Source: an uncultured Polaribacter sp. (GTDB lineage Bacteria; Bacteroidota; Bacteroidia; Flavobacteriales; Flavobacteriaceae). From it: a DNA stretch of 64,000 bases. The notes below the pieces were generated by a model, which was given only the letters and a program-made list of their open reading frames with translations, did no database searches and had not been told where the DNA came from. The stretch spans positions 1 to 64,000 of the forward strand of contig CALSME010000005.1 of NCBI GenBank assembly GCA_943787375.1, read 5' to 3'. Positions 6,699 to 63,475 of this stretch are shown in pieces; the first letter of the stretch is position 1, and every line of letters starts with the position of its first letter. Position numbers and translations under genes: made by a program.

Positions 6699-6733
6699 AA
6701 AAAAAGGAGCGTTTTTGAATACACTCCTTTTTT
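6699..6733 (-). terminator. Rho-independent terminator after frr
   Basis: Inverted repeat AAAAAAAGGAG ... CTCCTTTTTT with a 14-base loop, 20 bp beyond the frr stop. On the minus strand it ends in a T run. It separates pyrH-frr from the RND gene. Confidence 0.75.
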
Positions 6734-42424: not shown

Positions 42425-42426
42425 CA

Positions 42427-42460
42427 AAAAGCTTCAAATTTTTAAATTTGAAGCTTTTTT
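42427..42460. terminator. Bidirectional rho-independent terminator
   Basis: AAAAGCTTCAAATTT / AAATTTGAAGCTTTT palindrome with a 2-base loop. It can end both the tRNA transcript and the universal stress protein transcript coming from the right. Confidence 0.85.
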
Positions 42461-42484: not shown

Positions 42485-43312
42485 TTAAATTTTAAAAGTC
42501 AACATGGGTTTTAAAGCAGATTTAGACAGACTTTTAGCAACACTTCCATTAAACAAATGCGACAAACCACTTCTTCCATGTGTTGTTAATGCGATGATAT
42601 CTGCGTTTTTATTTCTAGAAAAATTTAAAATTCCTGTTTCAATAGAAAAATCGCAGTAAACATTGATCGAGTGTTTTGGCAATTTGTAATCGCTAATAAA
42701 GTTTTTTATTTTTGCCTCTGCCTCCAAGGTGCTTTCAAATTTATCGGGCGTATTTATTTTTAGTAAATGAATTTTACTTTTAAACAGGTGTGCAAAAGCT
42801 AAAAATTTTTCAAAAGCGATACTGTTATCTTGATTAAAGTTAGAGGCAAACACCAAATCTTTAAGTTTAAATTTTTCAGCATCTTTCTTTATAACAAGAA
42901 CAGGTGCTTTAGAGGTTCTTACCACTTTTTCTGTATTAGAGCCGATTAGTATTTCTTCAAACTCAGAATGTCCTTTAGAACCCATTACAATTAAATCTAC
43001 CGCTAGTTTGTCTGCATATTTTAAAATCCCTTCATAAGGAACTTGTAGTTTTATGATGTGTTGGACCTCGATGTCTTTAGAAAAAATACGCTCTTTAAAA
43101 CGCACGATCTTTTCTTTTGTTTTTCTAAGATACAACATACTTTCTGGAATGCTAAACCGACTTCCTGCAGTCATATCAATAACCCCTGAAGGTAATTCGA
43201 TGAGATGAAGTAAGTAAATAATACTTTCAGATTTTTCTGCAATTTTATTTGCAATTTTCGACGCAAATTCGGATTGTTTAGAAAAGTCAATAGGGACTAA
43301 AATTTTTTTCAT
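42485..43312 (-). CDS. Universal stress protein with two tandem Usp domains
   Basis: 275 aa, Usp domain 1 at 1-~145 and domain 2 at ~150-275. Each has the ATP-binding pattern G-x2-G-x9-G-(S/T): VMGSKGHSEFEEILIGSNTEKVV and TTHGRSGLSHLFNGSVAKSL. Tandem Usp proteins of this size are frequent in Bacteroidota. Involved in stress tolerance by a nucleotide-dependent mechanism not read from sequence. Confidence 0.92.
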   Translation of the reverse strand: MKKILVPIDFSKQSEFASKIANKIAEKSESIIYLLHLIELPSGVIDMTAGSRFSIPESMLYLRKTKEKIVRFKERIFSKDIEVQHIIKLQVPYEGILKYADKLAVDLIVMGSKGHSEFEEILIGSNTEKVVRTSKAPVLVIKKDAEKFKLKDLVFASNFNQDNSIAFEKFLAFAHLFKSKIHLLKINTPDKFESTLEAEAKIKNFISDYKLPKHSINVYCDFSIETGILNFSRNKNADIIALTTHGRSGLSHLFNGSVAKSLSKSALKPMLTFKI

Positions 43313-43378: not shown

Positions 43379-43410
43379 TTTGCTAATTCACAAACATTGT
43401 AGTATATTTG
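43379..43410 (+). promoter_or_regulatory. Promoter for the rimP-nusA-infB operon
   Basis: TTTG (43379-43382), 20 bases, TATATTTG (43403-43410). The predicted start of transcription gives a leader of about 58 nt before rimP that contains the hairpin described separately. Confidence 0.65.
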
Positions 43411-43440
43411 CACCGAAATCAGAACTGTTGAGAAAATGAA

Positions 43441-43464
43441 GGGGACCAAAAGTCCCCTCTTTTT
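43441..43464 (+). promoter_or_regulatory. Terminator-like hairpin in the rimP leader (candidate attenuator)
   Basis: GGGGAC-CAAAA-GTCCCC, a perfect 6-bp GC-rich stem, followed directly by TCTTTTTATATTTT. It has the shape of an intrinsic terminator yet sits between the operon promoter and the rimP start codon. Since nusA, whose product affects termination, is in the operon, autoregulation by attenuation is plausible. Confidence 0.65.
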
Positions 43465-43474
43465 ATATTTTAAG

Positions 43475-43933
43475 ATGAACGAAAAGGTAAAAGATTTATT
43501 AGAGGAAGCACTAGCAGTTAACGAATCTTTGTATCTGATAAGTTTTGAAATATCAACAAATAATAGAATTCAAATTGTTATTGATGGGGATCATGGAGTT
43601 GCGCTAAGCGAGTGTATGCGTATCAGTAGAAACATAGAAAATAATATCGATAGAGAAGTTTATGATTTTTCTTTAGAGGTTTCTACACCCGACATTGCCC
43701 ATCCAATAAAAGTAAAAAGACAGTATGTTAAAAATATTAATAGGATATTAAAAGTAACAACTGCAGAAGAGAATTTTGAAGGAACTTTAGCCCAAGCGAC
43801 AGACGATGCCATTGTTTTGAAGTGGAAAGCAAGAGAGCCTAAGCCAATAGGTAAAGGAAAAGTTACTGTAGAGAAAACAGCAACTCTTTTATATACAGAG
43901 ATTAAAGAAGCAAAAGTGAAGATTGTATTTTAA
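43475..43933 (+). CDS. rimP: Ribosome maturation factor RimP
   Basis: 152 aa from MNEKVKDLLEEALAVNESLYL; the ORF-track start 13 codons earlier lies inside the leader hairpin and is rejected. N-terminal alpha/beta domain (1-~80, with IQIVIDGDHGVALSECMRISRNIE) and C-terminal SH3-like domain (~85-152, KRQYVKNINRILKVTT ... NFEGTLAQATDDAIVLKW). Assists 30S assembly. First gene of the conserved rimP-nusA-infB operon, 11 bp before nusA. Confidence 0.96.
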   Translation: MNEKVKDLLEEALAVNESLYLISFEISTNNRIQIVIDGDHGVALSECMRISRNIENNIDREVYDFSLEVSTPDIAHPIKVKRQYVKNINRILKVTTAEENFEGTLAQATDDAIVLKWKAREPKPIGKGKVTVEKTATLLYTEIKEAKVKIVF

Positions 43934-43944
43934 GCAAGAATGTA

Positions 43945-45201
43945 ATGGAAAATATAGCATTAATTGATTCGTTTTCAGAATTTAAAGATAACAAAAGTAT
44001 AGACAGGGTAACCCTAATGTCTATTTTAGAAGAAGTTTTTAGAGCTGCCTTAAAACGAAAGTTTGGTTCCGATGATAATTTTGATATCATCATCAATCCA
44101 GACAAAGGAGATTTAGAAATTTGGAGAAATCGAATTGTGGTCGCAGACGGTTTTTCTGAAGATGATAATGAAGAAATAGAATTAGCAGAAGCCAGATTGA
44201 TTGAGCCAGATTTTGAAATTGGTGAAGATGTATCTGAAGAAGTGAAGCTAATCGATTTAGGAAGAAGAGCAATTTTGGCATTGCGTCAAAACTTGATTTC
44301 TAAAATATTTGAACACGATAGCACAAATATCTTTAAGCAATTTAAAGATTTAGAAGGTGATTTGTACAGTGCAGAAGTGCACCACATTCGTCACAATGCA
44401 ATTATCTTGTTGGATGATGAAGGAAATGAAATTGTTTTACCGAAAAGTGAGCAAATACGTTCCGACTTTTTTAGAAAAGGAGATTCAGTAAGAGGTGTGA
44501 TTAAGTCGGTAGAATTAAGAGGGAATAAACCTGCAATTATTTTATCAAGAACATCACCAGATTTCTTAAATAAATTGTTTGAGCAAGAAATTCCAGAAGT
44601 TTTCGATGGTTTAATTACCGTAGAACGTGTGGCTAGGATTCCTGGTGAAAAAGCAAAAGTGGCAGTAGATTCTTATGATGATAGAATTGACCCCGTTGGA
44701 GCTTGTGTTGGTGTAAAAGGATCTAGAATTCACGGGATCGTTCGTGAGTTAGGAAACGAAAACATAGACGTTATCAATTATACAAAAAATGAACAGTTGT
44801 TTATTTCAAGAGCATTAAGTCCTGCAAAAGTGACTTCGATGGAAATTGAAATGTATGAAGAAGAACGAAATGGTAAAAAAGGACGTGTAAGCGTACTATT
44901 AAAGCCAGAAGAAGTTTCCAAAGCAATTGGTAGAGGTGGAGTGAATATTCGTTTGGCAAGTGAATTAACAGGCTACGAAATAGACGTTCAAAGAGAAGGT
45001 TTAGAAGAAGAAGATGTTGAGTTGACTGAATTTACTGACGAAATAGAAGATTGGATTATTGTTGAATTCAAGAAAATTGGTTTAGATACTGCAAGAGGCG
45101 TTTTAGATGCAAGTGTTGCAGAATTGGTAAAAAGAACCGATTTAGAAGAAGAAACAATTGTAGATGTTCAAAGAATCTTGAAAGAAGAATTCGAAGAGTA
45201 A
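43945..45201 (+). CDS. nusA: Transcription termination/antitermination protein NusA
   Basis: 418 aa. N-terminal RNAP-binding domain (1-~130), S1 domain (~135-200, GDLYSAEVHHIRHNAIILLDDEGN), then two KH domains with VDSYDDRIDPVGACVGVKGSRIHGIVRELGNENIDVI and KPEEVSKAIGRGGVNIRLA. The C-terminus is shorter than in E. coli and lacks the second acidic repeat, as is normal outside proteobacteria. Confidence 0.97.
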   Translation: MENIALIDSFSEFKDNKSIDRVTLMSILEEVFRAALKRKFGSDDNFDIIINPDKGDLEIWRNRIVVADGFSEDDNEEIELAEARLIEPDFEIGEDVSEEVKLIDLGRRAILALRQNLISKIFEHDSTNIFKQFKDLEGDLYSAEVHHIRHNAIILLDDEGNEIVLPKSEQIRSDFFRKGDSVRGVIKSVELRGNKPAIILSRTSPDFLNKLFEQEIPEVFDGLITVERVARIPGEKAKVAVDSYDDRIDPVGACVGVKGSRIHGIVRELGNENIDVINYTKNEQLFISRALSPAKVTSMEIEMYEEERNGKKGRVSVLLKPEEVSKAIGRGGVNIRLASELTGYEIDVQREGLEEEDVELTEFTDEIEDWIIVEFKKIGLDTARGVLDASVAELVKRTDLEEETIVDVQRILKEEFEE

Positions 45202-45267: not shown

Positions 45268-48120
45268 ATGTCTGAAGGCAAAACAATGAGGCTTAATAAA
45301 GTTTTAAGAGAATTAAATATTTCTCTAGATAGAGCTGTAGAATTTCTAGGAAAAAACGGACACGACGTTGAAGCTAGACCTACTGCTAAAATATCTGGAG
45401 ACGTATATCAAGTTTTACTTGATGGTTTTCAAACTGACGCAAGCAAAAAAGCAGCATCTAAGGAAGTTGGTGAAGAAAAACGAAAAGAGAAAGAAGCGAT
45501 TCGTTTGGAACATGAAGCTAAATTAGAAAAGAAAAGAGCAGAGGACGAAAAAAAAGAAGAAGTTATTTTAAAAGCTAAAGCCGAAAAATTAGCATTTAAG
45601 ACTGTTGGTAAGATAGATATCAATAATCCAACGGGTAAAAAACAACCCGAAGCAGTAATAGAAGCGCCAACCCCTGTTGTGGAAACAGAAAAAGAGGTGG
45701 TCGCTGCAACAGTTCCTTCAAAAGAAGCGCCTAAAACTGTTGAAGAAACGCCTAAAGAAGAAAAGGTGGTTGCCGAAAAATCAAAAGCAGTAGCGAAAGA
45801 AGTTGCCAAAGTAGAGGTAAAAGAAGCGGCTAAGAAAATTACTGCTGTTGAAAAAGAAGCAACACCTATTGTTACAAAACAAAAAGTAGCAGAAGAAAAA
45901 GCAAAAGAAGTAACCGCAGAAAATGCAGAAGCGTTGGTTACTCAATATAAAAAATTAGACGGTCCTAAGATAACTGGGAAAACGATTGACTTAAAGCAAT
46001 TCGACAAGCCGAAAAAGAAAAAGCCAGAAGCAAAGCCTGCAAACGCCAACGATCCTCGAAAGAAACGAAAGCGAATTAACAAGCCAACAACAGGTTCTGG
46101 AACTCCTTCCAGAAGTGGTGGAGGTGGAGTCGGAAGACCTCAAGCAAGAAGCGGAAGTGGAAAACCACCTTTTAATAGAGGTCGAGTAAATCAAACTCCT
46201 GTTAAAAAAGAAGAGCCTACAGAAGCAGAAATTCAGAAGCAGGTTAGAGATACGTTGGAGAAACTTCAAGGGAAATCTAGCAAAGGAAAAGGAGCGAAAT
46301 ATCGTAGAAATAAAAGAGAAGCACGTAGAGAGCATACAGAAGCAGAACTAGAGGCACAAACATTAGACAACAAAATCTTAAAAGTAACCGAGTTCGTTAC
46401 TGTAAGTGAAGTTGCCATTATGATGGATGTTCCAGTAACAAATATTATTTCTTCTTGTATGATGCTTGGAATGATGGTGACCATGAATCAGCGTTTAGAT
46501 GCTGAAACTTTGGTGATCGTAGCAGAAGAATTTAACTATACGGTAGAGTTTATAGGAGCTGAAGTAGAAGAAGCGATTGAAGAAGTACAAGACAAACCAG
46601 AAGATATGATTACTCGTGCGCCAATTATTACGGTGATGGGACATGTGGATCATGGAAAGACGTCTTTATTAGATTATATTAGAAAAGCAAATGTAATAGA
46701 GGGAGAAAGCGGAGGAATTACGCAACATATTGGAGCCTATTCTGTAGCCGTTGGCGAACAACAAATTGCATTTTTAGATACACCAGGTCACGAAGCGTTT
46801 ACCGCAATGCGAGCCCGTGGTGCACAAGTAACCGATTTAGTAATTATTGTAGCCGCAGCAGATGATGATGTGATGCCGCAAACGAAAGAAGCAATTTCTC
46901 ATGCACAAGCTGCAGGAGTCCCAATTATTTTTGCAATAAATAAGATTGACAAGCCCAATGCCAATCCAGACAATGTGAAAACGCAATTAGCAGCTATGAA
47001 TTTATTAGTTGAAGATTGGGGTGGTAGTATTCAATCACAAGATATTTCTGCAAAAACTGGAGAAGGAGTTCCAGAATTGTTAGAGAAAGTTTTATTAGAG
47101 GCTGAAGTTTTAGAATTAAAAGCAAATCCAAATAAAAATGCAGTTGGTGCGGTTGTGGAAGCATTGCTAGATAAAGGAAGAGGATATGTTTCTACGATCT
47201 TAGTACAAGCAGGAACCTTAAAAATTGGAGATTACTTATTAGCTGGTAAACACAGTGGAAAAGTAAGAGCCATGTTTGATGATAAAGGAAACAACTTAAA
47301 GGAAGTAGGTCCTTCGACGCCAGTATCTATCTTAGGATTGGATGGAGCGCCACAAGCAGGAGATAAATTCAATGTATTTGATGACGAACGAGAAGCAAAA
47401 CAAATTGCTTCGAAACGTTCTCAATTACAACGTGAGCAATCTGTTCGAACTCAGAAAACATTAACCTTGGATGAAATTGGACGTAGAATTGCATTGGGAG
47501 ACTTTAAAGAGTTGAACATTATCTTAAAAGGAGATGTAGATGGTTCTGTAGAAGCATTGACAGATTCTTTCCAGAAATTATCAACCGAGGAAATTCAAGT
47601 AAATATTTTACATAAAGGAGTTGGAGCCATTACAGAAAGTGATGTGTTATTAGCTACCGCTTCAGATGCAATTATTGTAGGTTTTAACGTTCGTCCGCAA
47701 GGAAATGCGAGAGTCATTGCAGATAGAGAAGAAGTAGATATTAGAACGTACTCTATTATTTATGATGCAATTGGTGACTTAAAAGATGCGATGGAAGGAA
47801 TGTTATCTCCAGACATGAAAGAGGAAATCAGTGGTAATGTAGAAATTAGAGAAGTGTATAAAATTTCGAAAGTAGGAAACATTGCAGGGTGTATGGTTAT
47901 CTCTGGTAAAATCTTTAGAGATTCTAAAATTAGAATTATTAGAGACGGAATCGTTGTTCATGACGGTGTATTAACCTCTTTAAAACGTTTCAAAGACGAT
48001 GTAAAAGAAGTAACCAAAGGATATGATTGTGGACTTCAATTGAAAGGGTATAATGATATTGAAGAAGGAGATACTATTGAAGCTTATAAAGAAGTAGCAG
48101 TAAAGAAAAAATTGAAATAA
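45268..48120 (+). CDS. infB: Translation initiation factor IF-2
   Basis: 950 aa. IF2_N domain at the start ([21 protein letters not shown]), a long Lys/Glu/Ala-rich disordered region (~70-330), then the GTPase with [14 protein letters not shown]-type P-loop ([14 protein letters not shown]), DTPGHEAF (G3) and NKIDK (G4), followed by the beta-barrel domains and the C-terminal initiator-tRNA-binding part. Last gene of the operon, with a terminator just downstream. Confidence 0.98.
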
Positions 48121-48136
48121 AATTTTCAATATAGTT

Positions 48137-48171
48137 CAAAAAAAACGCCGCAATTTGCGACGTTTTTTTTT
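48137..48171. terminator. Rho-independent terminator between infB and the SPOR gene
   Basis: AAAAAAACGCCGCAA / TTTGCGACGTTTTTTTTT, one internal mismatch, A and T runs on both sides, so it can serve both converging genes. Confidence 0.75.
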
Positions 48172-60207: not shown

Positions 60208-60239
60208 AAAAAACCTTTCCCAATACGGAAAGGTTTTTT
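60208..60239 (+). terminator. Rho-independent terminator after coxA
   Basis: AAAAAACCTTTCC-CAATAC-GGAAAGGTTTTTT, a perfect 13-bp stem including A/T runs, 25 bp downstream of the coxA stop. Confidence 0.92.
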
Positions 60240-63157: not shown

Positions 63158-63421
63158 ATGACTGTTATAAAAATAGAAAACTTAAAATGTGGAGGCTGTG
63201 CAGCCACTATTAAAAAAGGATTGTTATCCATAGAAAATGTGGACGAAGTAGTTGTTGACGTAGAAAATGATACCGTTTCCATTAGTTCAAAAAATGTATT
63301 AATCGATTTGATAAAAGAAAAATTATCAAAATTAGGATACCCAGAAGTGGGGGATAAAAACACCCTTGTACACAAAGCAAAATCTTTTGTGAGTTGTGCC
63401 GTTGGTAGAATAGATGCTTAA
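63158..63421 (+). CDS. Heavy-metal-associated (HMA) domain protein
   Basis: 87 aa from the second Met (MTVIKIENLKCGGCAATIKKGL). One HMA domain with the metal-binding CGGC, beta-alpha-beta-beta-alpha-beta layout, and a short tail with one extra Cys (SFVSCAVG). Likely a soluble copper chaperone or metal-binding carrier. Followed by a strong terminator. Confidence 0.9.
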   Translation: MTVIKIENLKCGGCAATIKKGLLSIENVDEVVVDVENDTVSISSKNVLIDLIKEKLSKLGYPEVGDKNTLVHKAKSFVSCAVGRIDA

Positions 63422-63454
63422 AAAAAAGGCGTGCTTATAGCACGCCTTTTTTTT
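63421..63454. terminator. Bidirectional rho-independent terminator
   Basis: AAAAAAAGGCGTGC-TTATA-GCACGCCTTTTTTTT, near-perfect 14-bp stem including A/T runs, between the converging HMA and arsM-like genes. Confidence 0.92.
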
Positions 63455-63475
63455 GCTTATATTCACACTACTTTT

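Follow-up and report, generated by a model that had tools for sequence, protein, structure and literature searches.

A conserved terminator-like hairpin in the nusA-operon leader of Polaribacter and other Bacteroidota, and its probable role in attenuation

NusA plays a central part in transcription termination and pausing. In an uncultured Polaribacter sp., the operon that encodes it (rimP-nusA-infB) carries a terminator-like hairpin between its promoter and its first gene. The question raised by this locus is what such a structure does at the start of a transcription unit, and for which of the three genes it is kept. We analysed it within a 64,000-nucleotide stretch of contig CALSME010000005.1, hereafter the window; the operon, its promoter and its hairpin all lie on the plus strand. 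The GGGGAC/GTCCCC hairpin with a T run that the initial annotation had placed in the rimP leader was confirmed at 43440-43467. The hairpin itself, identified by sequence, model search and folding, is AGGGGAC-CAAAA-GTCCCCT with seven pairs (43440-43458). It is directly followed on its 3' side by the interrupted U-tract CTTTTTATA (43459-43467), which consists of C, five T (43460-43464) and ATA; the tail, written as CUUUUUAUA, is thus interrupted. The T run lies on the plus-strand side, and the minus-strand version of the hairpin has a poorer tail (CATTTTCTCA). Hairpin and U-tract lie about 30 nt 3' of a -7 box, TATATTTG (43403-43410), and 8 nt 5' of the rimP ATG. This box is of the Bacteroidota type TAnnTTTG, given as the sigma-A box of Flavobacterium psychrophilum in its transcriptome study (PMC9723704), and nearly all relatives have the same box before the hairpin. 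A TTTG at 43379-43382 is the probable -33 element, and a promoter scan returned a -35-like hexamer at 43380. We infer that transcription starts about 6-8 nt downstream of the -7 box, which would give a nusA-operon leader of about 58 nt, in agreement with the length originally claimed. The hairpin alone had a folding energy of -11.4 kcal/mol, and the whole 105-nt leader was modestly more stable than its shuffles (z of -1.6); with whole-leader folding this weak, the case rests on conservation rather than on folding energy.

The genes downstream were assigned as rimP, the first gene of the operon (43475-43933, 152 aa; NF002531, 177.9 bits), nusA (43945-45201; TIGR01953, 350 bits) and infB, which encodes IF-2 and closes the operon (45268-48120; TIGR00487, 797 bits). 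The rimP reading frame has a further ATG at 43436; an ORF caller could start there, span the hairpin and give RimP 13 extra residues (MKGTKSPLFLYFK-MNEK...). The start is likely the ATG at 43475, since the upstream ATGs are out of frame in most relatives. On the other side of the promoter, which separates it from the hairpin, lies a divergent universal-stress-protein-like gene (42485-43312). An AT-rich 15-pair terminator-like hairpin adjoins the 3' end of this gene at 42426-42459. Elsewhere in the window there are two-way terminator-like hairpins (6702-6731, 48138-48170, 60208-60239 and 63419-63455) that are longer and flanked on each side by A and T tracts, unlike the short hairpin of the rimP leader; the one at 48138 lies 3' of infB.

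Among 95 TAnnTTTG boxes and 30 hairpin groups on both strands of the window, the rimP hairpin was the sole terminator-like hairpin with such a box within 60 nt upstream. A covariance model scored 51.6 bits at the rimP leader versus 18.9 bits at the next site of the genome, so that the match was unique and the stem signature was not found at the other terminators of the genome. The 17-mer of the hairpin was also single-copy in the genome, even with two mismatches allowed. The model was built from 25 equal-length sequences; the full set of 49 hairpins was misaligned at the stem by MAFFT because the loop lengths vary. An Rfam scan of the region gave sub-threshold matches only and none to the rimP family RF01770, which also stayed below its cut-off in all 59 relatives scanned; the RF01770 model misses the Bacteroidota form of the leader. 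A ylbH match in the same scan (E of 0.014, 21.4 bits versus a cut-off of 50) was taken as chance.

Conservation of the stem among relatives was the check that the initial annotation had set for itself; it came out strongly in favour, and extends to the class Bacteroidia and to other classes of the phylum. In Flavobacteriaceae, the hairpin was present at 78 of 80 nusA loci; of the remaining two, L047 is truncated by the sequence edge, and at L081 the hairpin's 3' half is visible at the boundary of the stretch. The stem begins 21-32 nt past the -7 box, mostly 27-30 nt, whereas anything from 5 to 90 nt separates the T run from the start codon. A fixed distance to the promoter combined with a variable distance to the start codon is expected of a transcriptional rather than a translational element. 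G4 and the five T were invariant and C4 nearly so in 79 relatives (the search pattern demanded GGGG and most of CCCC, so that those columns were partly selected for), and the upstream spacer was much less conserved. The stem covaries: the two inner pairs, which lie outside the selection by the search pattern, vary on both sides in five cells, as many were seen in none of 500 shuffles, and shifting the pairing loses the signal. The outer pairs are invariant and hence uninformative either way. As the stem is nearly palindromic, a pattern search of 100 loci gives wrong-strand matches, and that alignment was left out. In one member of the same family as the window (L269, genome G249), the stem has been swapped wholesale for GAGGCACGC-ACA-GCGTGCCTC, with the same tail TTTTTATA.

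Across the class, nusA was found in 147 of 149 Bacteroidia genomes, and the upstream DNA was examined for a large part of these 147. Of 108 leaders, 97 contained a terminator-like hairpin by our detector, compared with 4.9% of dinucleotide shuffles, which indicates that the hairpin is not due to chance. The figure of 97 is a lower bound, as the detector misses or mispicks some visible hairpins (e.g., L147, L148, L154, L165 and L185); it had replaced an earlier detector in which A-U pairs absorbed the T run and many hairpins were missed. The 5' arm was G-rich in 94 of the 97 hairpins; it contained GGG in 92 cases and CCC in one. The most frequent core was GGGGAC/GTCCCC (43 of the 92), and paired variants included GGGGAT/ATCCCC, GGGAAC/GTTCCC and GGGGGC/GCCCCC, which illustrate rather than prove covariation, given that the detector requires pairing. 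On its own, the covariance model gave matches in just 15 of the 149 genomes, an underestimate due to differences in flanks and tail. Outside Bacteroidia, leaders were obtained for another 16 families of the phylum, and inspection by eye showed a terminator-like hairpin in every leader. Their stem sequences were different, and in a few of them (L247, L250 and L257) it is the 5' arm that is C-rich. Together with the replacement in L269, these other stems show that the structure and the U-tract are what is most widely kept; the G4/C4 sequence is a strong habit of Bacteroidia.

Natural losses and moves of the neighbouring genes provided a deletion series. By NF002531, and by PF02576 above its cut-off, rimP was absent from three Bacteroidia families (f31, f38 and f74) and from three of the four genomes of a further one (f58); in genome G114 there was one sub-threshold PF02576 match, on another contig. 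At the rimP-less loci, nusA comes first and the hairpin with its T run stands directly 5' of it (L118, L119, L141, L166, L199, L213 and L221-L223). The fourth f58 genome retains rimP, and the GGAGG/CCTCC hairpin before it (L224) resembles that of its rimP-less relatives. The rimP-less rows required five changes on the NusA tree, and a single clade was rejected (p-AU of 3e-38); by this tree, rimP loss in the four families appears to have been independent. In family f52, it is infB that has moved: it lies on another contig behind a promoter without a hairpin, the gene 3' of nusA is unrelated, and the hairpin stays before rimP-nusA in each of the three genomes, all of them drafts from a single genus (L260-L262, L264 and L265). 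From the rimP losses and the f52 move, nusA is the sole operon gene that is always 3' of the hairpin where the hairpin is present, which ties the hairpin to nusA rather than to rimP or infB. This constant association disfavours RimP or IF2 as the product for whose gene the hairpin is kept, and fits NusA. The pattern of gene loss thus speaks for feedback by NusA rather than for control through RimP or IF2, with the limit that a throttle directed at nusA would look the same.

The hairpin is dispensable, as three families have nusA without it. No hairpin was found before rimP in f56 and f64, where the promoters lie few bases from rimP (L229-L235), or in the nusA leader of f39, a 0.5-Mb genome. 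The NusA proteins of all three scored low in profile searches, and on the NusA tree those of f56 and f64 have very long branches (3.4 and 3.7 changes per column); the IF-2 scores of f56 and f64 were near normal. A link between hairpin loss and NusA divergence is suggestive, drawn post hoc from two or three lineages. A bolder reading is that, throughout the phylum, an attenuator of about 50 nt close to the promoter is dedicated to keeping NusA levels steady; in Bacteroidia, NusA or its complex with RNA polymerase would specifically recognise the near-invariant G4/C4 stem, and hairpin loss would accompany changes in NusA. We regard this reading as doubtful.

From the sequence comparisons, we consider it probable that the hairpin is an intrinsic terminator serving as a transcriptional attenuator of the rimP-leader kind, and that NusA-favoured release there limits NusA synthesis. 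RNA polymerase would start just past the -7 box, make the GGGGAC/GUCCCC hairpin and pause at the interrupted U-tract, so that the terminator would lie about 25-45 nt into the nusA-operon transcript. Either a leader RNA of about 45-50 nt would then be released, or polymerase would read through into rimP-nusA-infB. NusA bound to the polymerase would favour release: when NusA is plentiful, less of it would be made, and when it is scarce, read-through would follow. Neither an antiterminator nor a ligand would be required. Because no antiterminator, leader peptide or further conserved element is visible, the simplest control would be a factor that acts on termination itself. As for the attenuation of rimP-nusA-infB put forward in the initial annotation, the anatomy of an attenuator (promoter, hairpin and U-tract before rimP) is confirmed, and termination, which we infer to occur in vivo with an efficiency set by NusA, is a prediction from it.

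The main rival is a real terminator that stops a constant share of transcripts and so fixes basal operon expression, with no feedback from NusA. The anatomy and the conservation are equally expected of it, no sensor or antiterminator is visible, and the comparison of genomes would look the same if a constant throttle had been kept for nusA. However, the hairpin has stayed with nusA through independent gene losses, its stem almost unchanged, which is more than the setting of a basal level by a promoter of the right strength would call for; moreover, NusA acts on terminators generally, so some dependence on it is likely. We rate a fixed throttle as possible, though rather unlikely. A role for the hairpin as a protein-binding site or structure, recognised by RimP, IF2 or another protein and controlling translation or stability of the mRNA rather than termination, would accord with the highly conserved stem sequence and with RimP and IF2 belonging to translation. 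That role is improbable, as the U-tract is conserved as much as the stem, the distance to the start codon is so variable, the hairpin survives the loss of rimP or the move of infB, and the stem sequence is replaceable (L269).

Leader-peptide attenuation, in which a ribosome on the ORF from the ATG at 43436 spanning the hairpin would block termination, is more improbable still. An ATG lies within 12 nt of the stem in 63 of 79 Flavobacteriaceae leaders, but only 11 of those 63 are in frame with rimP, an ATG near the stem is no commoner in the class than expected (26 observed versus 24.2 expected), and the peptide is not conserved; on these three grounds the candidate was rejected. We also rejected, as the least probable reading of all, a terminator of the upstream gene or a chance inverted repeat. 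Terminator-like hairpins do normally lie at gene ends, but the upstream gene (42485-43312) is divergent, so that no other transcription unit ends at the hairpin; in addition, the promoter lies in between and the element is conserved class-wide.

Across Bacteroidia, the NusA operon has the same promoter-proximal attenuator, and the natural losses of rimP together with the move of infB point to nusA as the reason for keeping it. NusA autoregulation thereby becomes testable in a phylum with unusual promoters, and the leader would be a ready reporter for NusA activity. The comparison also exposes a gap in Rfam, where RF01770 misses the Bacteroidota form. In the rimP-less families, the loss of rimP may have consequences for 30S maturation.

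NusA autoregulation was reportedly proposed from E. coli in 1985. The kind of hairpin described here is already known, as it fits the rimP-leader attenuator. In the relevant passages of Naville and Gautheret (2010, PMC2965389), the rimP-leader is called the most ubiquitous attenuator, NusA is favoured as its regulator, and the E. coli operon is cited as repressed by NusA; Bacteroidota are unnamed in those passages. As described there, the rimP-leader is alike in being a short hairpin with a G-rich 5' and a C-rich 3' arm and a U-stretch in the leader of rimP-nusA-infB; both have a variable distance to the start codon (4-130 nt versus 5-90 nt in Bacteroidia), and neither has a visible antiterminator. 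The Bacteroidia element thus combines the operon leader position, the conserved G-rich and C-rich arms and the U-stretch with a stem signature that is unique in the Polaribacter genome. The motif differs (GGGc...gCCC in that account versus mostly GGGGAC...GTCCCC), and in Bacteroidia the hairpin also stands before nusA alone where rimP has been lost.

The initial annotation had called NusA feedback a known theme in other bacteria, and B. subtilis bears this out: NusA is reported there to curb its own production by promoting termination in the leader of its operon (Mondal et al. 2016, cited in PMC12288461), and it has its greatest effect where hairpins are weak and U-tracts interrupted (PMC12288461). 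Both systems have an intrinsic terminator within the leader of the nusA operon, and in Bacteroidota the element stays with nusA when the other genes are lost or moved. NusA dependence was shown by experiment in B. subtilis, whereas the Bacteroidota element is known from sequence comparison; the leader is about 180 nt there (PMC2965389) versus about 58 nt in Polaribacter. In S. agalactiae (gbs0413-gbs0418), a very short leader RNA of 31 nt, detected by RNA-seq, ends at the intrinsic terminator of the rimP-nusA operon, and NusA feedback was proposed (PMC4448216); the Polaribacter counterpart of about 45-50 nt is predicted.

For F. psychrophilum, the published transcriptome lists a transcribed structured 5' element upstream of rimP that is conserved in other Flavobacteriaceae genera and has no Rfam match (PMC9723704). 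It is very probably the same element, and it argues against a transcription start downstream of the hairpin, the weak point that the initial annotation had named for its own proposal. The main text of that report gives the element without structure or mechanism. What is new relative to these systems is the extent and form of the hairpin in Bacteroidota, the failure of RF01770 to recognise it, and the gene-loss evidence that points to nusA.
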